A stretch of DNA of 35,882 bases from Candidatus Kapaibacterium sp. (GTDB lineage: Bacteria; Bacteroidota; Ignavibacteria; Kapaibacteriales; UBA4661), in contig JANYDO010000026.1 in assembly GCA_025363605.1 (NCBI GenBank), positions 1 to 35,882 of the forward strand. Reading direction: 5' to 3'. Shown piece after piece: positions 2,411 to 22,335 of this stretch; positions within the stretch are counted from its first letter, which is position 1, and the number at the start of each line of letters is the position of its first letter. The notes below the pieces were generated by a model. That model saw only the letters and a program-made list of their open reading frames with translations. It did not search any database and was not told the origin of the DNA. The position numbers were made by a program, and so were the translations under genes.

Positions 2411-5400
2411 TTACCGCACTATCTGTACCGTTTGCGTTGCCTTGCCGTCATTAGAGCGCAGCGTCAGCAGATATGAGCCGCTTGGAAGCGTGCTCGTGGG
2501 AATGCGGATAGTATGCTCGCCTGATTTCAGGCTACTCATCAATTCCTCGCGAACAGGCTTTCCGGTAATGTCGCTCAGGACAACATTCATATCGCCTTCA
2601 TCCGCTTTACGGAAGGTGACAGTTATCACGTCGGTTGCAGGATTGGGACTGCTTTGCACAATCACCAAACTTGCCATAGGCGAGAAGAACAACTGCTGCC
2701 CTCCGGCTTGGTTGACATTTGTGAGAATAAAATTACCAAAAGACTGCAAGAGAATCAGGTCCCCAGCGCTAGGGTCAGCTAGCTTGATGGTATTCAACAA
2801 TGTAATGGTTGAGCCGGTTGCATTACCAATAGCCGCACGGAACGTCGGAGTAATGACCGTATCGGCAGCACTTCCGGGCGGAATAGCAAAAACAACCGTC
2901 CGCACAGCGCTTGCCACCGTATTCGAGACGGCAAGATTTGTAAGGTTGGTCGGCTCTAAGAGCGTTGCATTATAGCTCATAGAGATAAGCATTGTGCGTC
3001 CTTGCGGAATACGATGACGGTTGCGTACAAGAATCGGCATCGGAACGCTTGCGCCCGGCGACGCAGAATAGAGCGCATTGGACTGAGCGGCAGCTTTTTG
3101 CAAGAATGCTTGCGGAGCGCCCAAAATAGTGAGTCTTCCCGATACCGCACTGATATTTGCATTGGTTGCAAAGGAATCTTCGAGACGCAAAACCGTTGTG
3201 GTATCATTGCCAAGCACCGCACGGTAGCGTAAGCGAGCCATGACGGTATCTGTGCCATTCGGAGTGAACGTAAGGCGCACGACGCGCTGATTGTCGTACA
3301 CGCTACCGGTGGAGGCGGCATCAAGCGGCTGTAAGACTGTTGCATTCAGGCGAAGATTGGTGTAGATGGTCGTGTTTGCAGGCAAATTACGAATACCACG
3401 TAGTGTAATCGGTATCGTAATGTCGTCGCCGATTTGCGCCGTAGCGTCCACCGTTGCCAGCGTTGCGCGGGCGGCTGCGGCTTCTGCACTAGCACGTAAG
3501 TCCACTGTCATTACAGGGAACTCAGCATTGCTCCGCACTACTAACCGCGCTTCTTTCTGCCCGCCGGAAGTTGGCGCAAAATAGACGGTTGCCGTGGAAG
3601 AGATATTCGGTGCAATTCTCGTTCCTGCCGGAATTTCTCGCACGAGGCGGAATTCACTTGCGTTTTTGCCTTCAATCGAAACACTCGTTACCGTTACCGT
3701 ATCGCGTCCGGCGCTGCGAATCCCCATTCCAAGCGTCGCAGAAGTTGCATTGGGAGCGGTAGTGGCAAAGAACTGCGTAGTAAGCGGCACAACAAGACGA
3801 CGCAGCGCATTACCACTGCCGAAAAGTTGTACTGTTTCCGAACCGGGCGCGAGGTCGTGTGTGAGCGTCATTACGCCCATACGTACGCCAACATCTTTCG
3901 GGCGGAAATTCACCGTCAGACCAAAACTTTCATTCTGCGCAAGGCGAATCGGAAGCGCCGTGTTCACGGTAAATTCGCTCCCGTTCAAGCCGCCAAAATC
4001 GATGCGCGAAATGGTCATGCTGCCAGTACTGCTATTGCGCAGGTTAATGCGCTGCGTACCGGTGGTGTTCACGTTCACCAGACCGAAATTGAAAGAATAC
4101 GGACTCGGTGAAGAATTAATAACGTCCGCCGTTGCACGCGCTGTTACTTGTATTGCTCTTGGCAAACCACCGATGCTGCCAACGCGTAACCGTGCGGAGT
4201 CGGCTTTATCGCTATACATAATAATATCAACCAATTTCTCACCTGCTAGTATGGGCGAGTAGGCAATAGAAAGCGTTTGCGATGTTCCGGGCTGAATAGT
4301 AAAAGGAAGCGGTGTAAGCAAGCTAAACTCATTACTTTGGACGGTATTAAGCGTTGCGTGCAAAAACGCGGCTTTCGTTACGGTTATCGGCTCGGTTCCC
4401 ATGTTCCGAAGAGAAATGAGATTTACTATCCGCGTTGTACCAATAGGTACGAGACTGAGAGGGGGCAAAGCACCTGTGAGCGAGAACGGCGGCAAACGGT
4501 CGAAGCGACTAAAGAAACCCGATGTCCCGGTCAAATCTACTCCAACATCGTTAAAGTAGCGCAGAAGTGCTGTCGGGCGTTGCCCTTCACCTGAAAGCGG
4601 CATCAGAGACGTTACGCCGTCGTAGGTAATACGCAGTGCAGCATCACGTGAACGCGGTAAACTGGGCGAAAACGCAACTTGCACTTCTCTCGTGGCATTC
4701 GGAGCAATCGTTATCGGTGTTTGAGTAAGCACACGAAATTCGCCACTTGTGCCATCTACTGACGGCACAATGCTCAAATCGGCTATTGTCATCGGATTCG
4801 GGCTGATATTTGCCATTGTTACCGTTAGCGTCTTTACTGTGCCAATTGTTACGGGCAGAACAGAAACAACAGCTCCCGCAAGACGAATGGTGTTATTGAA
4901 ATCCAGCCCCGTTGCAAGCGGCGGATTAGTCCAGAGAACGCCACCAGAGCGAGCAGTTGCGGTTAGTTGCGTTGTGCGCTGGAATGACACCACACGCGGC
5001 GTATTAAGTGCAGCGAAATCACCCGGCGTATAGACATAGACTAAGCCCGACGGCGGAGCAATGTCAGGGAAAAGGTCGCAACGGTCGGTACTTGCTGCTG
5101 CTGGTGAGGAAGTAAGCCAGTTATTTTGCTGGAAATTTACTAAACGGCTATTAAAATCTGAGACGTTTTTCCCGCGCAAACCCACTTGCCCACGAATCAA
5201 GAACCCATCAAGCGTATAGCTCATTTTATCGTAGGCAAATTCAATGCGGTTGCTGCCCTCATAAAGTCGAATTTGGAAATTCAAGTCCGCATCCGGCGAA
5301 GCTCCGGTTGCGCCAACAACGGAAGTCCGTTTCCATTGCACAATAAACACGCGATTCGGAGCATCGCCTTTCGTGGCATAGCGAATAGTACCATCGGCAA

Positions 5401-8053
5401 GTGTGAAAAGGTCAAGTGCAAATCCTGCAATAATACCATCTGCGCCGTAGGTAGCATCACCAATCGGCGAACGCACGAAATCGGTTTCAGTAATAGATGA
5501 CCGCGCCGGATTAAATGCCAAAAAGCCGTTTGATACAAGGCGTACACTCGTGTAGGTATTAGGACCAAACTGGAACGGGAATGGCAATACAACATCTTTT
5601 TCATCATCATCCAAGTTAGCACCGGCGCTTGCAAATGGGAAATTATCATCGGTAATTTCTGTGTACGTTTCTTGACGCATAGAAAACTGATAGCCGTTTG
5701 CAATGGGTGTGCCAGCGCTACTTGTCGGCACAATACCATCAGACATTCCCACAACGTTAAAGTTTGCTGTGCGCTGCCCGGTCGCACCTACCGTAGGCTT
5801 GAAAATAATTTGCCGCGTCGTCGAAGCTCCCGGCTCAAGTTTCGTACCGTCAAGCACCGTAGCTAGATTAAATTCACTTGCATTCGCCCCTGTGAATGTC
5901 TGCGTGGCAGCCGTTACAGTAATGTTCTGATTTCCGGTGTTTGTAATGCGCACCGTGCCTGTTGTCGGCACGGGAGTCGTTCCTAAATCAATCGTAGGCG
6001 AGACCGCCAGTTGCGGTGTGGCGCTGCTGGCTGGCAATTGGAAGACGATACTTACACGCTCATAGTTCACGTAGGAACCGGAACGATAGGTAACAAGGAA
6101 ATCGGCAACGTCGGTAGTACCGGCAGAAGCACTCGCTCCGGGCTGAAGTTGAATGGTAAACTCCGCATCTTTGCGTTGCCCCGTAGCCAAATTACCAATG
6201 CTCACGGTAGGTTGCAAAGCCGTAATCGTGGGGTCAATCGGCGTAAGCGTGACGCTCACATCAGAAGCACCTGAAAGGATGTTTTTCACCGAAAGAATAA
6301 AACGCTTCGGCTCAAAACTTGTCAGCAAGCCGTTTACAGCATCAAGGCTATTGCCCGCGCCAACAATACCCGGCAGAAGCTCGCCTGTGCCGTTCAGAGT
6401 GCGGTTGATGTTCAATGCGCGGTAGGCGTTCATCCGCCCGAAATAGAACGAAGGACGTGCCGAAGCGCCCGGAACAAGGACATTTTCCGACGTTCCGCGA
6501 ATCTGCTGTGTTACTTGCTGCGGTGTCCATTCGGGGTGCAACGTGCGCACAAGAGCCGCAATGCCGCTCACCAACGGCGAAGCCATAGAAGTACCGCTAT
6601 ATTGAGTGTAACGACTTCCAATAACCGAACTAAGAATATTGCTTCCGGGTGCAAAAACTGATGTCTTTATACCAAAGTTGGAAAAGCCGGATGGAACGTC
6701 GTTTTCATCAGATGAACCAACAGACAAAACATTGTCGTAAGAAGCAGGCACAAAGTCGTCGTCCATAAGCACACCGGAATTACCCGCAGCCGCTACGACA
6801 AGGGTTCCGAGGGCTGTTGCTGTGTTGACAATATCCTGCGCTGCCTGACTAAAGCCACCGGAACCGCCCCACGAGCAATTCACGACAGAAGCACCCATCT
6901 GAGCGGCATAGAGAATACCTTCGTAGCCAAGAATAACGCTTGTAGCATTTGCAGGATCTTCTGTGGCTTGTTTTATGGGAAGAATACGGCAACGAAATCC
7001 CGAACCTAAGCCACCGACACTATTATTTGCCGTTGCTCCCGCGATACCCGCTACGTGCGAACCGTGATTGATACCGTCTTCCATATCAAGATCGCGGAAA
7101 GGACGAGGGCGGGGGTCATTGTCGGGGCGATAGATAGACGCAGCACGGTCAGCAGCGCTCACATTGCCGATAAAATCCCAGCCGCGCCAGTCATCTACTT
7201 TACCGTTATTGTCGTCGTCCACGCCATTCGTGCGCTTATCGCGTCCCATAGCATCCATGCCGGATTCGCCCGGATTTGTCCAGATATTATCTTTTAAGTC
7301 TTCATGTTCAATATCCACACCGCTATCGCAAATGGCGATAATCGTTTTTTCGCTGCCTTGCGTGATACCCCATGCTTTTTCTGCCTCTATTCGCGCCCAT
7401 TGGTATTGCTTGGTGAAAAGCGGATCTGTGGGGGTAACGCGGTCTTGTAAGACTTGATAGATGCGAATCGGCTCGGCATATTCCACTTCGGGATTCTTCG
7501 CAAGCTCATCACAGAGTTTCTGCACGTCCACACCCGGCTCGAAGCGCACTGCATAGAGCCGCCCCAGACCGTAGGTGTCGCTTGTGAGCATAGCACCGCT
7601 ATTGTGCGGCGTGGAAACGGGACGAATCTCGCGCACGTTCACGCCTTCCAGCGTACTCATCAGCACCGAGGATTGGAAGGTCTTTGCGCCTTTGCCCATA
7701 GTGAAAAGCTCACGGGTTTTGACATAAATAGCGCCCTTTTCGTATGTGCCTTCTTTGAGTGCTTGGCGGCGCGGAGCTTTAGCGAGGTTGTACATCCCAT
7801 TGGCAAGCTGGCTTCCCGGAATGAGAGAGCGTCTTTTTATTTGAACTATGGTGTTGGCACGTGCATCTTCCTTCGTACGCTTCTGTACAGTGGCACTTGC
7901 GTCGGCACTGGATGATTGCGCAAAAAGTTCAAAAGCAAAGGGCAAAAGGAGTGCCCAAGCCATGACAAAGCATATGGCAAAACGCACAGCGCACGAGCGC
8001 AAGATTGCAGACCGCAATGCACGAGAGGTCGCACCAGTACGGGGTTGATTCAT
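2411..8053 (-). CDS. Secreted subtilisin-like (S8) serine protease with T9SS sorting tail
   Basis: An 1880-aa exported peptidase. I start it at the ATG at 8053, preceded by AAGGAT at 7-bp spacing; the frame is open to 8131 but that extension is poor. Residues 1-46 form a signal peptide with a long basic n-region, cleaved near ELFAQ. The S8 catalytic domain spans about 215-550: Asp243 (ICDSGVD), His330 (NHGSHVAG), oxyanion Asn425 (AAAGNSG) and Ser489 (GTSMASP) are all present, so it should be active. Beyond it lie a choice-of-anchor-D domain (about 680-785), a nidogen-like beta domain (about 790-985), more anchor-D repeats (about 1030-1530), two cohesin-like copies (about 1535-1785) and a C-terminal type A T9SS signal starting SSPNPATDVITVTF. 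It is therefore expected to cross the outer membrane by T9SS and be surface-attached or released. The substrate is unknown. Confidence 0.93.
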   Translation of the reverse strand: MNQPRTGATSRALRSAILRSCAVRFAICFVMAWALLLPFAFELFAQSSSADASATVQKRTKEDARANTIVQIKRRSLIPGSQLANGMYNLAKAPRRQALKEGTYEKGAIYVKTRELFTMGKGAKTFQSSVLMSTLEGVNVREIRPVSTPHNSGAMLTSDTYGLGRLYAVRFEPGVDVQKLCDELAKNPEVEYAEPIRIYQVLQDRVTPTDPLFTKQYQWARIEAEKAWGITQGSEKTIIAICDSGVDIEHEDLKDNIWTNPGESGMDAMGRDKRTNGVDDDNNGKVDDWRGWDFIGNVSAADRAASIYRPDNDPRPRPFRDLDMEDGINHGSHVAGIAGATANNSVGGLGSGFRCRILPIKQATEDPANATSVILGYEGILYAAQMGASVVNCSWGGSGGFSQAAQDIVNTATALGTLVVAAAGNSGVLMDDDFVPASYDNVLSVGSSDENDVPSGFSNFGIKTSVFAPGSNILSSVIGSRYTQYSGTSMASPLVSGIAALVRTLHPEWTPQQVTQQIRGTSENVLVPGASARPSFYFGRMNAYRALNINRTLNGTGELLPGIVGAGNSLDAVNGLLTSFEPKRFILSVKNILSGASDVSVTLTPIDPTITALQPTVSIGNLATGQRKDAEFTIQLQPGASASAGTTDVADFLVTYRSGSYVNYERVSIVFQLPASSATPQLAVSPTIDLGTTPVPTTGTVRITNTGNQNITVTAATQTFTGANASEFNLATVLDGTKLEPGASTTRQIIFKPTVGATGQRTANFNVVGMSDGIVPTSSAGTPIANGYQFSMRQETYTEITDDNFPFASAGANLDDDEKDVVLPFPFQFGPNTYTSVRLVSNGFLAFNPARSSITETDFVRSPIGDATYGADGIIAGFALDLFTLADGTIRYATKGDAPNRVFIVQWKRTSVVGATGASPDADLNFQIRLYEGSNRIEFAYDKMSYTLDGFLIRGQVGLRGKNVSDFNSRLVNFQQNNWLTSSPAAASTDRCDLFPDIAPPSGLVYVYTPGDFAALNTPRVVSFQRTTQLTATARSGGVLWTNPPLATGLDFNNTIRLAGAVVSVLPVTIGTVKTLTVTMANISPNPMTIADLSIVPSVDGTSGEFRVLTQTPITIAPNATREVQVAFSPSLPRSRDAALRITYDGVTSLMPLSGEGQRPTALLRYFNDVGVDLTGTSGFFSRFDRLPPFSLTGALPPLSLVPIGTTRIVNLISLRNMGTEPITVTKAAFLHATLNTVQSNEFSLLTPLPFTIQPGTSQTLSIAYSPILAGEKLVDIIMYSDKADSARLRVGSIGGLPRAIQVTARATADVINSSPSPYSFNFGLVNVNTTGTQRINLRNSSTGSMTISRIDFGGLNGSEFTVNTALPIRLAQNESFGLTVNFRPKDVGVRMGVMTLTHDLAPGSETVQLFGSGNALRRLVVPLTTQFFATTAPNATSATLGMGIRSAGRDTVTVTSVSIEGKNASEFRLVREIPAGTRIAPNISSTATVYFAPTSGGQKEARLVVRSNAEFPVMTVDLRASAEAAAARATLATVDATAQIGDDITIPITLRGIRNLPANTTIYTNLRLNATVLQPLDAASTGSVYDNQRVVRLTFTPNGTDTVMARLRYRAVLGNDTTTVLRLEDSFATNANISAVSGRLTILGAPQAFLQKAAAQSNALYSASPGASVPMPILVRNRHRIPQGRTMLISMSYNATLLEPTNLTNLAVSNTVASAVRTVVFAIPPGSAADTVITPTFRAAIGNATGSTITLLNTIKLADPSAGDLILLQSFGNFILTNVNQAGGQQLFFSPMASLVIVQSSPNPATDVITVTFRKADEGDMNVVLSDITGKPVREELMSSLKSGEHTIRIPTSTLPSGSYLLTLRSNDGKATQTVQIVR

Positions 8054-8477
8054 TGAACTATCCTTATAGAAAAATGGAAAAATCACAATGTGAGAAATGT
8101 AAATGAGTATGTGTTTTTGGGTCGGTATCATTTTTCACCTTCAAGCGTAATGCCTTAGAATGTTGACAGTAATGGAGAACATGAGACAAAACGAGGTGGA
8201 ATTCTTTGTAGTCAAGAAGTGTACTCTTGCGAAGTGCGCAATAAGATTTGGAAACTAGGGAAATTTTCGCATAAAATCAATACCAAATCACCGTGCGCGT
8301 ACAATTCTCATAAATTTCTCCGTGAAAATCGTTTTTGCGTAATCTTCCTTTGTAGAGAATGTTTGTATGATTATTTTGAGCGTACTCCATAGAAAGCCGT
8401 CGTTCTATGGGTTTTTCGGCGCTTCATCCGTATTTTTGCCTACATTTTTTAGCGAATTTGAGGAGACCCAACCATCT
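8054..8477. other. Divergent intergenic region between protease and glmM
   Basis: This 424-bp region holds the upstream sequences of two divergently transcribed genes. For the plus strand a TTTG-N20-AATGTTTG promoter candidate is seen (8334-8365). For the minus strand only the protease ribosome binding site just before 8053 is clear; I find no TAnnTTTG box. The reading frame open from 8367 gives no recognisable protein before MSFIRS at 8478. Confidence 0.5.
8334..8365 (+). promoter_or_regulatory. Candidate Bacteroidota-type promoter for glmM operon
   Basis: TTTG at 8334-8337, then exactly 20 bp, then AATGTTTG at 8358-8365, one mismatch from the Bacteroidota -7 box TAnnTTTG. The spacing equals that of the better match upstream of the DHH gene. 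It would give a leader of about 105 nt before the ATG at 8478. Confidence 0.35.
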
Positions 8478-11925: not shown

Positions 11926-14900
11926 TTAGCGTTTGATGAGTTTGTCGGTAAATCGGCGTTCACCATCGGTCATCTCGAAGAAGTACACACCCGAATGGAG
12001 CGCACTTACATCAAGTTGCTGCGAGAATTTGCCTGCGCCGACTGCTTGCGTGAAGAGTACAACGGTGTTCCCAAGAACATCCGTGATACGAACGCGCAAC
12101 TGTCCTGCTTTTGGCAGATTTGCCTCGAAGCTCACCATTTCTTCTATCGGGTTCGGATAGACGCTGCCGGTCATTACTTCGACTGTCATCACTTCACGAA
12201 CACTTGGTCGGAAAGCATTTGGAAGCGTAAATGAACGTCCATCAGGATTCACAATACGAATTGTTGGGTCTCCTAAGAAGAACCCTGCCGGAGCAATCGC
12301 TGTGATTTGATTTGCACCTGTGTTGACAATCCGAAGCGGAACACCACCGACTGTTACGGTTGCACCTTGCTGGAAGTTGGAACCGTTAATCGTAAAGGTG
12401 ACATCAAAGTTGTACTGCGGGCGTAAATCCGTCGGAGTTACACTGGAGATAATCGGACACAAAGAGCAAAGGACGTTCACCGAAGCCTGTGCAAACTGCG
12501 TGTCAGGATTGATTATCTGTACGATTGCTGTACCTTCTTGGCTATTGACACCTGCCGGAACGAATGCTGTTACCTGCGTTGGGTTTGCACCCAAGATTTG
12601 CAGCACCGTGCCGTTATAGCGGATTTGGAAGCCCGCAAGCGGCTGTCCCTGTGGTGTTACACCGAAATTCAGACCATTGACAGTGATAATAAACGGCGTA
12701 CCGGTTGCATTGGTCGTGGAAGGCGATACCGATGTAATAACCGGACGATTTGGCTGACCAATGGTGAAGGTAGATGATCCTTCAAATCCATCGGCATTCG
12801 CAAGCGTTATCGGGAAGACACCTTGCGTATTATTCAGTCCGGCTGGTACCTGAACAATCACCTGCGTATCGGAGGTCGAAACGACGGTTATCTGTACACC
12901 GTTAAACCGTACCGACAAACCTTGGCGGAATCCTGTGCCGGTTATTGCTAACTGGAACGGGAAGACCGAAGCTGCCGTTACGTTTTGACCGGATATTGCT
13001 CCACTTGCCGTCAGTACACTGGTAATGGTAGGCGCAGGATAGCCAACATTGAAGAGCGCTGCACCGGAGAAACCTCCCGGATTCGTAATCCGAAGCGGGA
13101 ACGTACCAAAGGATGTAAGCAGATTTGCCGGAATCACAGCCACGATTTGTGTTGTGGTGCGCACCGGATTAGCCAAGACCTGAATCGGAATGTTATTAAA
13201 GGTAACATCTGCATTCAAAAAGAAGCCCGAGCCGGCAATTGTAACAATAATAGCCGACGTACCCACAATCGCACGCGGTGGCGTAAGACTGCTGATAACG
13301 GGACGACCTGGATCGCTGATAACAATTGTCCCTTGTACTTGCTGACCGTCGGAATTCCGCACAACGATAGTGAGCGTTTGCGGCGTTTGGTTGAGGTCGG
13401 CAGGAATAATAACTCTTATTTGGTTAGCAATAGCAGACAAAATACTGATGGAGCGCCCATTTGCTGTGACCGTCGTACCGGCAGAACCAAAGAAGTTCGT
13501 ACCGTTGATGGTCGCAATAAAGGCAACACCACTTGCAGAGGTCACGCTTGGCGAAATACTCGTCAAGGTCGGCGTACCACCGGCAACAAGTTGGAAAGCA
13601 ATATTTGTGTATTGACCGTCAGCATTCAAGACCGTGATAAAGCGTTGCCCAATCATGTTATTGAACGTACCGGAAATCGTAGCGCGAATCTCCGTAGCCG
13701 ATACGCTTTGGATAGAAATACGCGACGATGGGCTAATAGCTTGCGGTGCATTAGAAAGCGAGAAGAAAACACCGGATTGAATATCGTTGGGAGCCGGATT
13801 CAAATTGATATTGAAGTTCGAGCCACGAATGATAATCGGAATATCTTGACCGTTGACCACAGCAGAGTTTGGTGTTACACTACTAATGACAGGAGCCAAG
13901 TTATACGTAAAGAGCTGAGTCGAAGTACTTACCCCACCGGAACCAGTAATTACGATAGGACCAACCCGCTGCGTGAGGGATGTACCGGAAACCAATACTG
14001 CCATCTCTGTACCGGCAGCATTGATACTCTGCACGGTACCGGTAATACCGGCAATCGTGACTGAGAAGATATTCGTCAACGTACCAAAATTTGTTCCTGT
14101 GATAGTAACAACAGTACCTGTACCACCAGCTGCTGGCGTAAAGGATGAAATAGTTGACGGCGTCCCGACAGTAAAGATAGCCGTGGATGTACCTGAACCA
14201 CCCGGATAGGTTACAGTCGTAGGACGAGATACCGTAACAAAGCCCGTAGATGCGCCGGCAGGAACCACTACTGAGATAAGATTATCACCAAGTACGGTAA
14301 AAGTCGTAGCAGGAGCACCGTTGAATAGAACAGTATTAACACCGGTGAAATTTGAGCCATTGATAAGAATCGTCGTTCCCGGCCCGCCCGTGGGCGGTGT
14401 AAATCCGGTAATAGTCGGGAAAATAGCAGCAGCAGATATGGTAACAATTGCCGAGGTTGCAGCAATCGGTCCGGCACCTGCTGTGGTGCTGACCACGAGC
14501 CGTACTTGCGTTGTCGGGGCACTTGGGTTTGTCCATGTTACCGTAACGCCATTCAGTCTAATACCTGACTGGTTCACGAAAACGCCGGAAGCATTACCGC
14601 CGACAGTGAACGTGTTGCCCGGTGTCACAGCTTGTGCTGTCAAAGTAACCGATGAGTTAGAAAGCGAATTTGCCAGAACACCATTTGCATCAAACAAACC
14701 AAGATCAACACTGAACGGTATGTTGTTTGCGATGTTTGGATTATTACCATTAATACCTTGTGTACCGGTCGAAGAAATTTGGCTAAATGCCAACGCTACC
14801 GGTATACTTGCTCCGGTTGACAGCGTGATAGTTGCATCTGTGGAAGCAATCACGCCATAGACCGGCGGTAAATTTTGCGGTGTCAAACGAACGACAACGC

Positions 14901-17900
14901 TAATTGGTCCGGCAACCGTAGGATTACGCCAGTTCAGAATAACATTTTGCAATGTTGCTTGACGAGCGCCGAAAATCAGAGGTATTGAGGAACTACCATC
15001 AATTGTTACGGTCTCTGTTGCAGGGGTAACGCTGACAATAGAAAGTTGCACGGGGTTACCTGCACCAGTTGCCAAGACATCCGCAGCATTGAAGAAGCCG
15101 AAATCAATGTTAAACGGACGACCGCTTGGTATATTGCGATTCCCGCCATTGATACCCGCGCCGCCAATAGCTGGGGTAGAGTGACCGGTTGTTGGTCCGA
15201 CGCTTGGATTAAACGAGGTTACCGTTGCTATAGAACCGGTCGTGGTCACCCATACTTGCGCAGTTGTGGAGAGAAGTGTTGTCTGACCACTTACAACCGA
15301 TAGAGTAACGATTGCCGCTCGCTGACCGGGGGAGTTTGCCGTGTAGAATATACGCGGGAACAATGACCCTGTACCGTCAACTTGAGAAACCGTTGTAGCT
15401 GTTGTGCCATCCATAGTGAACACATCCGTCGGATTGATAGGATCCGGCGCAATCGTGAGCTGTACCTGTGTTGGCGATGTCGGGCGAATGACCGCACCAT
15501 ACTCAACAAAGGAAGCAAAGTTCACGCGAACTTGTTGACCGCTTGTTATCGGGGTTCCTACGGTAAAGTTTCCGCCGTTAAAGCCCAAAGTGCCGGTTGC
15601 GGCATTAAGCAAATCACCGGAATTGACAGCATAACCGAGACGGGTAGGTACAGGAGCCGTGCTACTCGTGCTCAAGGTAACGGTTACCGTCGTTGAACCG
15701 ATACCGGGTGCAGTGAGTGTGATGAATGCTTTAGTAATACCACCATTAACCGGAGGGTTTGTCCAGTTAAATATTGGGAAGATAAAACCACCCGTTGCCC
15801 CAATAGCTACGGTTTGAGGATTGATAGCACCATTGGAGCCGCCCGGTGTAGTAGAGAAAATTGATCCCGGATTAGCAGGGTGAACGGCGATGCTGGCAAC
15901 AACGGACGTGATGTTTGTCGTAGCAACCAAGAAGTTTGTATTCGAGAAGAAACCAAAGTTAATCGGAATACCCACACCACCGGTGATATTGAACTGTCCC
16001 AAACCGCCGCCGTTGAAGCCGAATGTACCATTGCTGGAGTTTTGGACTTGCGTATAAGCAATGGTGGAAGCGCGAAGTGGTGGAGCGAGAATGGTCACTG
16101 TGAGTGTAGCCGATGTCAGCGTACCTGTTGGGTCGTAGAGACGCAGGATAGCTGTCGTGCTGGCTTGATTCCCAAAATTCAGCCAGTCGAAGGTAATATT
16201 GGTTGTTGTCGCGCTAATAGGATTTGCCGGAACGTTCAGAACAATCGGTGTAAAGACACTGCCAGTACCGGTAGTGTTAAAGACAGCCGTTGCTCCCGGA
16301 AGCGAGAAGAGGTGCGCCTGTACGTTCAGTGCAGCTAGGACAGGTGAACGCTGATTCAAACCATTGAAAGAGCTAATACGCAAGGTAAAGGGCGTACCGC
16401 TTGTGATGGTGAGATTGCCAGCTGCGGGGCTTGCAAAGCCGTTTGGCGTTGCGGGATTGAAACCGCCCGAACCACTACTTGAGAGTGAGTCCGCGGCGAG
16501 AATAATCGCGGTAGGCGGATTGAGTACCACAAACGGGGTATTGCTATACGAAGTAATTGGTAGAGAATTGATAGCGCTAAAGTATGTGCTACCAACACCA
16601 ATTGTGCTGGCTCCACCCAACGATGAATTGAGTAGGTTATTATACGTCGCTCCTGTCCATTGACCGACAAAAGCATTATTACGGACAAAGCCGGGTGCTT
16701 CGTGGCTAATTTCCCACATATACTGCATGAGGTCGGCAGTACTTGCGCCACTGTTTTTGTTTACCGTCCACTGAACATTGACACGCTGCGGATACGTTCC
16801 GGCTTGATTGGTAATCGTAGAAGCGGCATTAACAGAATAGAAATCGCTTGAGGCGCTACTATTAAATATCATTACCGGAGAGTAGAAGATTGCCGAACTA
16901 AGCGTGTTTGTCGTTCCCACGGGGAATGTGCGCCATGAACCTGCCGGAATCGGCATAATCAGACGTGCGCCAAGTGCCGTTTCGATAAAGTTATTATCAC
17001 GAATTGGCGTGTAGGTTGCGTTCGTAGCATTGACGTTAAACGTTACATTCGGCTCGAGGCGGATATTACCGCCACCGTTTGCCGGTGCAAAATTCGTCGT
17101 GTTCATGGAAAGCGTACCATTGACCGCCGTAGCGCTGGTAATCACCAAAAGTGGATTGGTGACAAGCGCCATAGCAGCATCAACCTGCATATTGTTCAGT
17201 TGATTACCTGCTCCGCCCGCCATGCGCAAGACAGACTGACGCGGGGAGGTGAAGGTAAGATTTGAAGTAGCACCACCAAACAGCGTACCGGAACCCGAAT
17301 TGATGAAACCACCAACCGTATTGTTACCAGTATAGCTGAGAGAGTTACCGTTCATTACCAATGATGCCGTTCCGTCCAAGAACATACGCCCTGCATCGGT
17401 AATAGCCGTTGCAGATTGGAAGGTTGCGTTTGTGCCGGAAGCCATCGTAACGTTTGCATTTGTCACGGTCAAGCATCCAAGGAATGGCACACCACCGCTT
17501 GCATCGAAACGAAGTGTTGTCGGTGTAGGGTTGTTGTACTCAATACAGCTATTGCTTGCTGCGCCCATACCGACACGGAACATACCAAGCGGTGAAGGCG
17601 AATTGAGTGCCGCACGCATTGTGAAGCGTACCCCTGCTGTTGCAAGGTCAATTGCACCATTCAGCAACTGGATAGTTGCGCCGGTGATAGTTTTGTTAGC
17701 GTCAATTTGCACGAGGTTATCAATAATACCCGGCAGAACACCGCCGCGTGCAAATCCCTTATCAACAATAAGCGTTGCACCAAAAAGGTTCGGGAATTCA
17801 ATCGGCGAGGTGCTGACCGTACGCTGACCGCCGTAGCGGAGAGTCGAAGTCGGGGCAAGATAAACAACAGGATTCGTCGTAATGCCACCCAGACCAACAC

Positions 17901-20900
17901 TAATGAGGTCAAGAGTGCCGGTTGTGCCAATCACAAGCCCAGTTGCCGTTGCGTTATTCAATGCAGGGAATGCAGCAGCCGTTTCACCGGCAAGCGTCAA
18001 ACGACCATCCACCAACACACGACCGGAGGTGATTGCACCGGCTGTAACGTCTCGGTAGAGCGTAAGTGTGTCGTTTTGCGCAATACGCAAACCGAAACTC
18101 AAATCAGCGTTAACTACATTTAAGCCCGCAGCCGCTAACACAGTTAAATTACGACTGGAATTAAGAACAACTTGTGGCAGTGGAGCTCCGGCAGTCAATG
18201 TTTGACCGATAACAAGAGAACCTAAACTGCGATCAAGAAGAGATGCACCCGTAAAACGCGGATTCGACGGACCTTGTCCGTTAATCGTTAATCTTGTTAA
18301 GGTCGAACCATTACCGATAAATGTTCCATTAACCGTTGCTGTTACAGCCGAAGTCTGACTGGTAGGAGCCGGACCGACGGTGAGTTGCTGATTGGAAAGA
18401 AGATTAAAACGACCGGCAAGGATATTGACATTATTATTAACCGTTATTGTGGTTGTTCCGGCAGTGCTGATGAAGAAATCTGTATTTGTACCTGTACGAT
18501 TCACAATCAAGTTTGCCGTGAGCGTTGGTGTTGCAGATCCCCACTCATTTGTGACGGCGGGTAATGTTGTTACCGATGTTGTCAAAGCATCCGCATACGC
18601 CAGCGTAGGCGGAATGGTCGGTGGAAGCGCTGTATAAGGAACAGGTGTATTGTAAATAAGTCCCGTATTCATGCCTTTGGTAAACGTACCACCTGCCATT
18701 TGCAAGGTTGCACCGCTAGCAACGACAAAACTTGCCGTAGCCATATTGACGGTGTGATTAAATGTCGAAGGCGGGTCAATGCGGAATGTACCGAAGACGA
18801 TACCGCGCTCAAAGTTTCCTGCTACGGTTGGGGTAATGTTCAAATTTGTTCCAGCCAAACGCAAGGTTGAACCGGTTGCAATATGAAGCGATTCACCGAA
18901 GAAGGTATTCACATCGGCAGCAATCATCTGCTGTGCAAGATTGAGCGTTGTGCCTTGAGCCAGTGTCGGCGAAGCGCCTCCCATGACCGTTAGTCGTTGA
19001 ATTGCAGTCGGAATATTTGTCGAAATCACGGGAGCATCAATTGAGCGGTCAAAAATTGCCCAGTCGTTGATGCCCGGAGGTGCTGCACTACCCGGTGTGC
19101 CGTTAGATGAGGAAGCCCAGTTAGAAGCTGTTCCCCAATCCGTATTGTTCCCACCAACCCAGTAAATCGGAAAAAGTGCATTGGATACAATAAACGGTGT
19201 GCTGGACAAATTACCATTATAGGTCGCTTGCAATGTGCGGGGCGGACCAAAGACGGGAAGTGTCGTCGGCAGAACGTTGGCATACGATGTTCCTGTCCAG
19301 CGACGAATACTCGTCAAAGCAGAATTGCTCGTGAGCGAGGTATTAAAAGCAACCGGTTCGTCAGCGAGATTCCACTGAAGTGTAATCGGCCCATTATAGG
19401 GTGCACTGCCTTTGCTGACTGTCCACTGAGCGTTGACGCTGCTTGTGACCAAATTAGCCGGAATTGCGGGAAGATTGACAATGGCTGTTGTTACGCTAAC
19501 CGTGTAATTTTCAGGCGCTACCGTGTTATTGATAGTAACAGGCAAGTAACGCGATGCTACACCTGCACCGACGTTTGCGCCGATAGGGAAGGTATAGCCT
19601 GTTACATTGATGTTCTGCACAATAAGCCGTCCGCCTCGTGAGGCATCAATAAAATTCCCTGCCGCTGAAGGAACTCCTGAAATATTGGAATTCGACAGCG
19701 TAAGATCGCCAGTACCAATTTGTAGAATTGCGTTATTCGAGAATGTTAGTGCCGGAGAATTATTAATTGTCAGAGGAGTAAGCAGAGAAACCAGATAGTC
19801 AATGGGTGTTGTTGGCATTGCTGTCGGTTGCAAAAACATATTTCCAATCACCTGACCACCCGGAACCATACGCACATATGAGCGAATTTGCGGCGCATTG
19901 AAGACAAGTTGCGTACCCGTGTTACCCAATATTCCTGCTGTATTCGTTGCCGGGATGTTTCCACCTTGTCCGATACCAGCACCAGCGACATTTGCACCGG
20001 AAAAAGCTAGCGTCATCGTACCGGTAGCAATAATATTACCGGTGTTATTAAGGAGAAGTTGCCCATTTGCATTGTTTGTTGCAAGATCATATGCGGCAAC
20101 ATAGTTTGTGCCATTAACCTCTACTCGCCCGCTCAAGCTAAGATTGCCAGTATTCGTAACCCCAAAGTGATTAAAAATAGTGAGCGTACTGTTCGTTGTT
20201 TGAATGGAAGTAGAAGCAGCATTATTGTACACAAATGCTGAACCGGTCGCAGCAGCACTGCCGGCAATATAACCACCGGTAGTTACTGTCGCCGTACCAT
20301 TCAGAATCATTCTGTTTCCGTTCATGCCAATACCACCGGAAACAAGATTGAGATTCCCATTCTGCGTTACCGGGCCATTGAGCAAGACCATATTCAAGTC
20401 AGCTGCATTGGGTCCCAAACGATTAACAGTGATAGAACCGTTCATAACGGGCGGTATTTCCTGCGGTGTACTTGGGCGTGCCATTAAGCCCGGATTTTGA
20501 GCATCTTGGAAATCCGCAATAGACGTTGCATCGGTGTAGAAGGTATTACCTGCACCGGGAGTAATCTGTGCAGTGTTTCCCCAAAACTGAATCCGTCCAC
20601 CGGAGCCAACGAGAAGACCCGAACTTGTTCCCGTACCGGCTGTATTGGTATTGCTAATTGTGGAACCTGTAGAGATAACCAAGGTACCATTCACAATCAG
20701 GCGACTCGTTGTGAAGTTACCGATGTTACCGACAGAGTTATTTCGTATTGAAACAGTTCGTCCTGCGCCAACAGTAATTTGACCACCTTGGTTCACACCG
20801 GCAACCGCAGCTGCATCGGCAGCCTCTATACCACTTGTGGCGGAACCAAAAATTTGCATATCGGTCAAAAGACTGACATTTAATGTCGCAACACGGTTGC

Positions 20901-22083
20901 GAAGCCTCGTCAACATTGCCGGGGGCGTAAAAGCCAAATCAGATGTCGTCGCACCAAGCGGCATAGCGGAAAGCTCTTGATAAATAAGCTCAATCGGCAT
21001 ACCCGGATTGTCCACAGTCGTAATCGTACCACCGGAAATCATACGGCTGGCAGCCATTGTCACGGTCGTATTGAGAGGAATCGAAAGAACAGATGTGATA
21101 TTTTGAACCGACAACGTCCCTGTAAGTTGATAATTACTGCCTCCTGTCATTTGCGTTACAGCAGCAACACTTCGACGAATGGTAAGATTTCCCAATGCGG
21201 TGGCAGGAATTTCGGCCGTACCACCCGGAGCGGGAATAGTTTGTGTAACGTTATCAGGACGGTCATAAATCAAAGTCCCACGAGCTCCTGTTGATGCGTA
21301 CTGAATTGCACCTGCGGCACTACCATAGGTACCGCCAGACATACGCAAAGCACCACCATCTTCAATGCTAAAATTGGCTGCAACGGCATTACTGACGATA
21401 CCCAACGGACCGAGCAGTCCGGTGCTACCAACAGCTATACTGCCGAATATCTGTGCGCTTAAAGGTGCACCACCAACGTTTGCTGCAATCGAAAGTGTAA
21501 CATTATTCCCGACAAACAGTGTGGAGTTCGGAGCAACGATAAGAGGAGAATTCAGATTATCGCCCACAATGCCATTGAGCTGCAGTACTGAAGCCGTACC
21601 ATCGCTCAGTGTGATTGTAACTCCCGATTGAACGACAACACGACCCACCTGAGCCGTTAAACCGCCCATGCTGATTGTGACTGCGCCAGTAAGGTTATCA
21701 AAAATTGCAATGTCATTTACGCCTGGAACGCCTGCGCTACCAGGGCCACCAGAAGTCGAGCTCCAATTAGGAGCTGAATTCCATGTACCTCCACCAACGC
21801 GGAAAAAAGTTGCTGCTGTCGCAATATTTGCCGTAGCGAAAAGTACCAAGACAAATGCCATTACCTGCGCGACAGAGCTTCGTGCTGCCGTGCGTGTCGC
21901 CTTCAAGACGGTACGCAGTGTGCGATGTAGCAAGGATACATCCTGCTGCATCGTATCCAAAGCCTCAAGCGAGGGACTCGCGGCTTTGGCACTGATACTG
22001 TCTCCGGCGCGTCCGCTCAGGGGGCGCAGAGCTACGCCACGAATGGGCGAGCGCTGCTGAGCAGAAGTGTGTAGAGAGTTCAT
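11926..22083 (-). CDS. Giant T9SS-secreted surface protein with beta-solenoid-like modules and IPT/TIG domains
   Basis: A 3385-aa protein, probably a surface adhesin or matrix protein; no enzymatic motif is visible. The ATG at 22083 has GGAG 9 bp upstream; the frame is open to 22173. A basic ~70-residue leader precedes the hydrophobic core (VAQVMAFVLVLFATANIATA). Order: an opening motif VGGGTWNSAPNW...AIFD (about 93-128); Gly/Asn/Thr-rich repeats resembling a beta-solenoid (130-870); a WTV.K domain ending in RWTGTSY (about 900-970); a second opening motif WVGGNNTDWGTASNW (about 975) with a second solenoid stretch; a second WTVNK/QWTGATY domain; five ~135-aa repeats of an unnamed type (about 1855-2550); eight IPT/TIG domains (about 2554-3290, core I.S.TP....G..I.I.G.NF); and a T9SS type A tail from SVYPNPIEEM to DKLIKR. 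It contains few cysteines. The domain calls for TIG and T9SS are firm; the biological role is inference. Confidence 0.9.
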   Translation of the reverse strand: MNSLHTSAQQRSPIRGVALRPLSGRAGDSISAKAASPSLEALDTMQQDVSLLHRTLRTVLKATRTAARSSVAQVMAFVLVLFATANIATAATFFRVGGGTWNSAPNWSSTSGGPGSAGVPGVNDIAIFDNLTGAVTISMGGLTAQVGRVVVQSGVTITLSDGTASVLQLNGIVGDNLNSPLIVAPNSTLFVGNNVTLSIAANVGGAPLSAQIFGSIAVGSTGLLGPLGIVSNAVAANFSIEDGGALRMSGGTYGSAAGAIQYASTGARGTLIYDRPDNVTQTIPAPGGTAEIPATALGNLTIRRSVAAVTQMTGGSNYQLTGTLSVQNITSVLSIPLNTTVTMAASRMISGGTITTVDNPGMPIELIYQELSAMPLGATTSDLAFTPPAMLTRLRNRVATLNVSLLTDMQIFGSATSGIEAADAAAVAGVNQGGQITVGAGRTVSIRNNSVGNIGNFTTSRLIVNGTLVISTGSTISNTNTAGTGTSSGLLVGSGGRIQFWGNTAQITPGAGNTFYTDATSIADFQDAQNPGLMARPSTPQEIPPVMNGSITVNRLGPNAADLNMVLLNGPVTQNGNLNLVSGGIGMNGNRMILNGTATVTTGGYIAGSAAATGSAFVYNNAASTSIQTTNSTLTIFNHFGVTNTGNLSLSGRVEVNGTNYVAAYDLATNNANGQLLLNNTGNIIATGTMTLAFSGANVAGAGIGQGGNIPATNTAGILGNTGTQLVFNAPQIRSYVRMVPGGQVIGNMFLQPTAMPTTPIDYLVSLLTPLTINNSPALTFSNNAILQIGTGDLTLSNSNISGVPSAAGNFIDASRGGRLIVQNINVTGYTFPIGANVGAGVASRYLPVTINNTVAPENYTVSVTTAIVNLPAIPANLVTSSVNAQWTVSKGSAPYNGPITLQWNLADEPVAFNTSLTSNSALTSIRRWTGTSYANVLPTTLPVFGPPRTLQATYNGNLSSTPFIVSNALFPIYWVGGNNTDWGTASNWASSSNGTPGSAAPPGINDWAIFDRSIDAPVISTNIPTAIQRLTVMGGASPTLAQGTTLNLAQQMIAADVNTFFGESLHIATGSTLRLAGTNLNITPTVAGNFERGIVFGTFRIDPPSTFNHTVNMATASFVVASGATLQMAGGTFTKGMNTGLIYNTPVPYTALPPTIPPTLAYADALTTSVTTLPAVTNEWGSATPTLTANLIVNRTGTNTDFFISTAGTTTITVNNNVNILAGRFNLLSNQQLTVGPAPTSQTSAVTATVNGTFIGNGSTLTRLTINGQGPSNPRFTGASLLDRSLGSLVIGQTLTAGAPLPQVVLNSSRNLTVLAAAGLNVVNADLSFGLRIAQNDTLTLYRDVTAGAITSGRVLVDGRLTLAGETAAAFPALNNATATGLVIGTTGTLDLISVGLGGITTNPVVYLAPTSTLRYGGQRTVSTSPIEFPNLFGATLIVDKGFARGGVLPGIIDNLVQIDANKTITGATIQLLNGAIDLATAGVRFTMRAALNSPSPLGMFRVGMGAASNSCIEYNNPTPTTLRFDASGGVPFLGCLTVTNANVTMASGTNATFQSATAITDAGRMFLDGTASLVMNGNSLSYTGNNTVGGFINSGSGTLFGGATSNLTFTSPRQSVLRMAGGAGNQLNNMQVDAAMALVTNPLLVITSATAVNGTLSMNTTNFAPANGGGNIRLEPNVTFNVNATNATYTPIRDNNFIETALGARLIMPIPAGSWRTFPVGTTNTLSSAIFYSPVMIFNSSASSDFYSVNAASTITNQAGTYPQRVNVQWTVNKNSGASTADLMQYMWEISHEAPGFVRNNAFVGQWTGATYNNLLNSSLGGASTIGVGSTYFSAINSLPITSYSNTPFVVLNPPTAIILAADSLSSSGSGGFNPATPNGFASPAAGNLTITSGTPFTLRISSFNGLNQRSPVLAALNVQAHLFSLPGATAVFNTTGTGSVFTPIVLNVPANPISATTTNITFDWLNFGNQASTTAILRLYDPTGTLTSATLTVTILAPPLRASTIAYTQVQNSSNGTFGFNGGGLGQFNITGGVGIPINFGFFSNTNFLVATTNITSVVASIAVHPANPGSIFSTTPGGSNGAINPQTVAIGATGGFIFPIFNWTNPPVNGGITKAFITLTAPGIGSTTVTVTLSTSSTAPVPTRLGYAVNSGDLLNAATGTLGFNGGNFTVGTPITSGQQVRVNFASFVEYGAVIRPTSPTQVQLTIAPDPINPTDVFTMDGTTATTVSQVDGTGSLFPRIFYTANSPGQRAAIVTLSVVSGQTTLLSTTAQVWVTTTGSIATVTSFNPSVGPTTGHSTPAIGGAGINGGNRNIPSGRPFNIDFGFFNAADVLATGAGNPVQLSIVSVTPATETVTIDGSSSIPLIFGARQATLQNVILNWRNPTVAGPISVVVRLTPQNLPPVYGVIASTDATITLSTGASIPVALAFSQISSTGTQGINGNNPNIANNIPFSVDLGLFDANGVLANSLSNSSVTLTAQAVTPGNTFTVGGNASGVFVNQSGIRLNGVTVTWTNPSAPTTQVRLVVSTTAGAGPIAATSAIVTISAAAIFPTITGFTPPTGGPGTTILINGSNFTGVNTVLFNGAPATTFTVLGDNLISVVVPAGASTGFVTVSRPTTVTYPGGSGTSTAIFTVGTPSTISSFTPAAGGTGTVVTITGTNFGTLTNIFSVTIAGITGTVQSINAAGTEMAVLVSGTSLTQRVGPIVITGSGGVSTSTQLFTYNLAPVISSVTPNSAVVNGQDIPIIIRGSNFNINLNPAPNDIQSGVFFSLSNAPQAISPSSRISIQSVSATEIRATISGTFNNMIGQRFITVLNADGQYTNIAFQLVAGGTPTLTSISPSVTSASGVAFIATINGTNFFGSAGTTVTANGRSISILSAIANQIRVIIPADLNQTPQTLTIVVRNSDGQQVQGTIVISDPGRPVISSLTPPRAIVGTSAIIVTIAGSGFFLNADVTFNNIPIQVLANPVRTTTQIVAVIPANLLTSFGTFPLRITNPGGFSGAALFNVGYPAPTITSVLTASGAISGQNVTAASVFPFQLAITGTGFRQGLSVRFNGVQITVVSTSDTQVIVQVPAGLNNTQGVFPITLANADGFEGSSTFTIGQPNRPVITSVSPSTTNATGTPFIITVNGLNFGVTPQGQPLAGFQIRYNGTVLQILGANPTQVTAFVPAGVNSQEGTAIVQIINPDTQFAQASVNVLCSLCPIISSVTPTDLRPQYNFDVTFTINGSNFQQGATVTVGGVPLRIVNTGANQITAIAPAGFFLGDPTIRIVNPDGRSFTLPNAFRPSVREVMTVEVMTGSVYPNPIEEMVSFEANLPKAGQLRVRITDVLGNTVVLFTQAVGAGKFSQQLDVSALHSGVYFFEMTDGERRFTDKLIKR

Positions 22084-22101
22084 ATAGTATATCTCCAAAA
22101 A

Positions 22102-22109
22102 CAAAAATA
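22102..22109 (-). promoter_or_regulatory. Possible -7 box upstream of giant gene
   Basis: On the minus strand the sequence TATTTTTG fits TAnnTTTG. No TTTG lies 17-23 bp further upstream, and the resulting leader would be only about 15 nt, placing the GGAG ribosome site almost at the 5' end. Weak support. Confidence 0.25.
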
Positions 22110-22335
22110 CTTGTGAATTGAAAAAGAGGGTTTTCTGTTCGTTGCTATAAAAAATTAGGTTGGAAGTCATCACTTGAGATGCTATGAAGAATATCAGGCA
22201 TTTGGCATTATTTCAGATAAGATCGACTTTCTAAAGCATTGTACTTTAATGCTACTACCCAACTCACCTCACGTTATCTACCAGCGCGTGGCAAAGATAC
22301 GCTTTATTTCACGAATCATGCTATGCCTTTGCGTA

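Follow-up and report, generated by a model that had tools for sequence, protein, structure and literature searches.

What is the repeated domain in the middle of a giant surface protein of Candidatus Kapaibacterium sp., and what would it do there? The protein lies in a window of 35,882 nucleotides, by which we mean the whole stretch of DNA that was analysed, and is encoded on the minus strand by a 3,415-aa open reading frame (11926..22173) that opens with GTG. A hydrophobic stretch near residue 100, AQVMAFVLVLFATANIATAA, suggests that the true start is further in. The N-terminal half contains a duplicated module of ~865 aa (16519..21762, minus strand; 25% identity and E 3e-23 in self-comparison), which appears solenoid-like and may be a beta-solenoid. 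Each module starts with a (Y/F)W/RVGG..W....NW.S-like motif and ends with a QWTV...WTG.(S/T)Y segment. No Pfam family matched the first 1,887 residues, and hence no known adhesive domain was seen there, although one of an unknown type may be present. Directly behind the repeated domain, matches to the TIG profile delineate an array of about eight IPT/TIG domains (12184..14421, minus strand).

At its C-terminus the protein carries a sorting domain for type IX secretion (11929..12162, minus strand), which matched PF18962 at 6e-13 and TIGR04183 at 1e-9. The host genome contains a SprA_N match at 3e-18, representing a component of the type IX secretion system (T9SS), and Por_Secre_tail exceeds its cut-off there in more than 130 matches. 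The giant protein thus shows both features of a type IX substrate: it has the sorting domain at its C-terminus, and its genome encodes a T9SS. There are at least 150 TIG matches and at least 150 Por_Secre_tail matches, so that repeat proteins exported by the T9SS are numerous for a genome of 5.3 Mb. The window encodes another large T9SS substrate (2411-8131, minus strand), a subtilase of 1,906 aa that has HYDIN/ASH/Cep192-like Ig repeats and carries a T9SS sorting tail.

The original prediction had placed a five-copy repeat of ~135 aa after the solenoid-like part and before the TIG domains, and we found it there, at residues 1888-2583 (window 14425-16512, minus strand), entirely outside the PF01833 match, which begins at residue 2586. 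The units are 128-147 aa long and 21-35% identical in pairwise comparison, with the best BLASTP values among them being 4.5e-8 (U4/U5) and 1.1e-7 (U2/U3). U1 (residues 1889-2032; 16078..16509, minus strand) is the most diverged and has an insert of ~11 residues at the GFN turn. U2 (residues 2035-2170; 15664..16071, minus strand), U3 (residues 2176-2313; 15235..15648, minus strand) and U4 (residues 2332-2455; 14809..15180, minus strand) are supported by copy comparison and leave-one-out profiles and, for U2, by the tandem model described below; residues 2314-2331, before U4, are either a linker or a first strand. U5 (residues 2458-2583; 14425..14802, minus strand) is the copy that was modelled singly. 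The motif proposed for all five copies held only in part: the GFNG/GING turn is present in U2-U5 and reads GFNP in U1, 'PF' occurs in U1, U4 and U5 but not in U2 or U3, and 'W.NP' occurs in U2, U4 and U5 but is replaced by WLNF in U1 and YTAN in U3. Similarly, copies 1 and 3 had been named as the most diverged; the profile tests agree for U1, whereas U3 stands out less.

Leave-one-out profiles built from the window sequences alone scored U2-U5 at 27-51 bits, above the maximum of 11.3 bits reached by 500 composition-preserving shuffles per copy, and never rose above 2 bits in the rest of the giant protein. In this window-only test U1 scored 6.8 bits, which is not above the shuffles. A profile made only from non-orthologous outside proteins gave 34.1, 34.6, 32.6, 31.4 and 49.0 bits for U1 to U5, with shuffles at 11.7 bits or less, and the membership of U1 is secure once these outside sequences are included. 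The outside-profile test is not fully independent, since its members were gathered by iterating from the window copies; independence belongs to the initial search, which started from nothing but the five copies of the window and already detected the domain in other proteins.

That five-copy profile detected four further copies in three other proteins of the same genome (E 8.8e-14 to 1.1e-10). In a set of 60 relatives, matches were obtained in each of the seven other species of the genus as well as in further families of the order. The members come from metagenome-assembled genomes labelled Ignavibacteria bacterium or Candidatus Kapaibacterium, and iteration brought the aligned family to 107. 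In draws of 294 genomes from the class and 395 from the phylum, in which the best 11-15 candidates per genome were scored, clear matches were confined to the order Kapabacteria ('Ca. Kapaibacterium'); two marginal matches (E ~4e-4) were left uncounted, of which one lay in a different family of this order and the other elsewhere within the phylum. Because the profile searches were made within the phylum and on the best 11-15 candidates per genome, these data make it likely, rather than proven, that the family is order-specific. The GTDB-wide scan covered a single U5-type peptide pattern, and a tblastn search with U5 in plasmids gave no match. In one relative an open reading frame extends over 15,437 codons (L061, L062; G016:C58:82000-113000), and in it single copies of the domain alternate with FG-GAP beta-propeller stretches at a period of ~545 residues.

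The arrangement is conserved within the genus. Orthologues in six congeneric species (3,417-3,703 aa) contain five or six copies followed by eight TIG repeats and a T9SS tail, with the array at the same position in all six, and in the paralogues of the host genome the domain units again stand before TIG. In a maximum-likelihood tree the copies clustered according to their place in the array (U1 with U1, U2 with U2, and likewise for the others) and not by species, which indicates that the five copies predate the diversification of the genus and have been kept distinct since. In most of these groups a protein from another genus (G009) took a basal or nearly basal place, although the placement was poor for its fourth copy and for some of the deep forks. 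We looked for long near-identical DNA repeats between the copies and found none, as fits copies that have long been kept distinct. On this phylogenetic evidence, the array is of old origin and its copies have not been homogenised.

None of the five copies, the region as a whole or 59 family members reached the cut-off of any Pfam-A or NCBIfam model. The 59 members also shared no consistent match; there were only single, inconsistent matches at E 0.0036 or worse, the best being Myco_19_kDa (U5, E 0.015) and DA_N (another member, E 0.0036), and we regard them as chance. A profile search of PDB sequences gave Fibcon as its best match at a non-significant E of 0.14. No existing family in Pfam-A, NCBIfam or the PDB sequences thus strongly matched the GFNGG...PF core, and by the measure of these three collections the family appears to be undescribed at the sequence level.

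The predicted fold, by contrast, is familiar. An AlphaFold2 model of U5, made from a 59-row alignment, consists entirely of strands, nine in number (pLDDT 92.7, pTM 0.87), and a less certain model of the U1-U2 tandem shows the nine-strand order twice (pLDDT 78.8, pTM 0.68). Compared with the PDB (Foldseek, VIA-align 2), U5 resembled Ig-like and E-set folds with Z up to 9.1. Judged by strand count and fold neighbours, the predicted U5 fits the Ig-like fold, which is defined as a Greek-key sandwich of two packed sheets with seven to nine strands. The neighbours include GH2 C-terminal domains, Runt, STAT, filamin and fimbrial chaperones, and because their Z values are tied across many Ig-like families they indicate 'Ig-like' and nothing finer. 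The top Foldseek folds (cucumisin, DraB, FaeE and GH2) were rejected as relatives, with TM-scores of ~0.5 and the same ties in Z. The tandem model aligned over both domains with FdeC (4e9l), InvE (5n40), complement C3/C5 and protocadherin at Z ~7, which is near background. The models predict that the copies are nine-strand Ig-like/E-set beta-sandwiches, with confidence for U5. Since this fold is very common, the family would be new by sequence only, and the description of the domain as being of an unrecognised type applies to its sequence but not to its predicted fold.

The composition of the copies is skewed (T 14.8, G 11.1, A 10.3, S 9.5%). They are also nearly without charge (D 2.0, E 0.3, K 0.1, R 2.3%, or D+E 2.3% and K+R 2.4%). 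The 696 residues of the array include no cysteine and one lysine, which excludes disulfides and intramolecular isopeptide bonds, and with them covalent stabilisation of these kinds, within the array; such bonds would need a pair of Cys, or a Lys with an Asn or Asp partner, in every domain. Calcium-stabilised linkers are unlikely, given the 2.3% of acidic residues and the lack of a conserved acidic column in the family. Following the first strand, the family alignment has a near-invariant G.N.G turn (G 99/104, N 83/104, G 84/100). It is most simply a structural turn, although it could also have a putative binding role.

The skewed composition of this Thr/Gly/Asn-rich sequence could by itself create the impression of a repeat, and U1 taken alone within the window does not exceed its shuffles. 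Sequences shuffled at the same composition nevertheless score far lower than the copies, and homologues of like architecture occur in six congeneric species, so we give practically no weight to a chance resemblance arising from low complexity. The copies might instead be degenerate TIG domains that extend the TIG array upstream, as their place directly before that array and the E-set-like character of both would allow. This is very improbable: a profile-profile comparison with the TIG repeats of the same protein gave a probability of 0.1%, and PF01833 matched the neighbouring repeats but none of the copies and none of the 59 members at E 0.1.

A further possibility is that the copies are themselves adhesive, each binding a ligand such as a glycan through the GFNGG loop, with avidity added by the five together. 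Domains that double as stalk and as adhesive domain are known (PMC8286594), few parts of this otherwise ~25% identical family are as well conserved as the G.N.G turn, and copies kept distinct by position across the genus would fit copy-specific functions. However, conservation falls on small residues that form turns and on aromatics that probably belong to the core, with no acidic or basic column among them, charged residues are very rare, and both context and copy number differ among proteins. We therefore consider adhesive copies unlikely. It is also rather improbable that the family constitutes a new class of ligand-binding Ig-like domain with the GFNGG loop as its putative site, an order-specific adhesive module missed by domain libraries.

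We favour, with a probability of roughly 80%, the reading that the copies belong to a lineage-specific Ig-like (E-set-type) family that forms a stalk segment in a surface protein exported by the T9SS. Of this, the analysis shows the repeat and its homologues, their position ahead of the TIG domains and the T9SS tail, and a confidently predicted Ig-like fold. The Ig-like beads would be aligned head to tail as a spacer, in a putative geometry given the pTM of 0.68 for the tandem, and would hold the duplicated solenoid-like part away from the cell; the type IX machinery would process the C-terminal tail and attach it. Fibrillar adhesins combine an adhesive domain with tandem, often Ig-like, stalk domains (PMC8286594), and such stalks are the known design of these proteins (PMC8286594; PMC8877628). 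The giant protein has tandem stalk domains of this kind in its five Ig-like copies and about eight TIG repeats; as no adhesive domain is recognised by name, the appropriate statement is that the array probably works like a stalk, not that the protein is a fibrillar adhesin. Arguing against a TIG-adjacent stalk as the sole context, other families of the order alternate the domain with FG-GAP beta-propeller stretches.

Like the Ig-like stalks of fibrillar adhesins (Big and the invasin/intimin/FdeC type), the copies would be tandem Ig-like sandwiches of ~100-145 aa in a long exported surface protein, and they resemble FdeC and InvE in predicted fold and tandem arrangement. Unlike those stalks, they are tied to T9SS export, have no Cys and almost no Lys, and carry their own GFNGG signature; in addition, none of the Big or other Ig-like models of Pfam/NCBIfam matches their sequence significantly. 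With the IPT/TIG domains (PF01833) that adjoin them in the same protein they share the character of E-set-like repeats, but the units are ~125-145 aa rather than ~85 aa, with another signature and no profile similarity. The closest solved fold is the C-terminal Ig-like domain of GH2 beta-galactosidases (7rsk, 5t99, 6quc; Z 9.1 over 99 residues at 2.7 A), at an identity of 9-17% and in a context that is not common to the two.

Tandem Ig-like stalks are already well known, and no concept is changed by these results. What they add is a probable, uncatalogued Ig-like stalk family in one uncultured order, for which the 107 aligned members suffice for a Pfam entry; naming the domain would annotate part of the giant T9SS-exported proteins of Kapabacteria.
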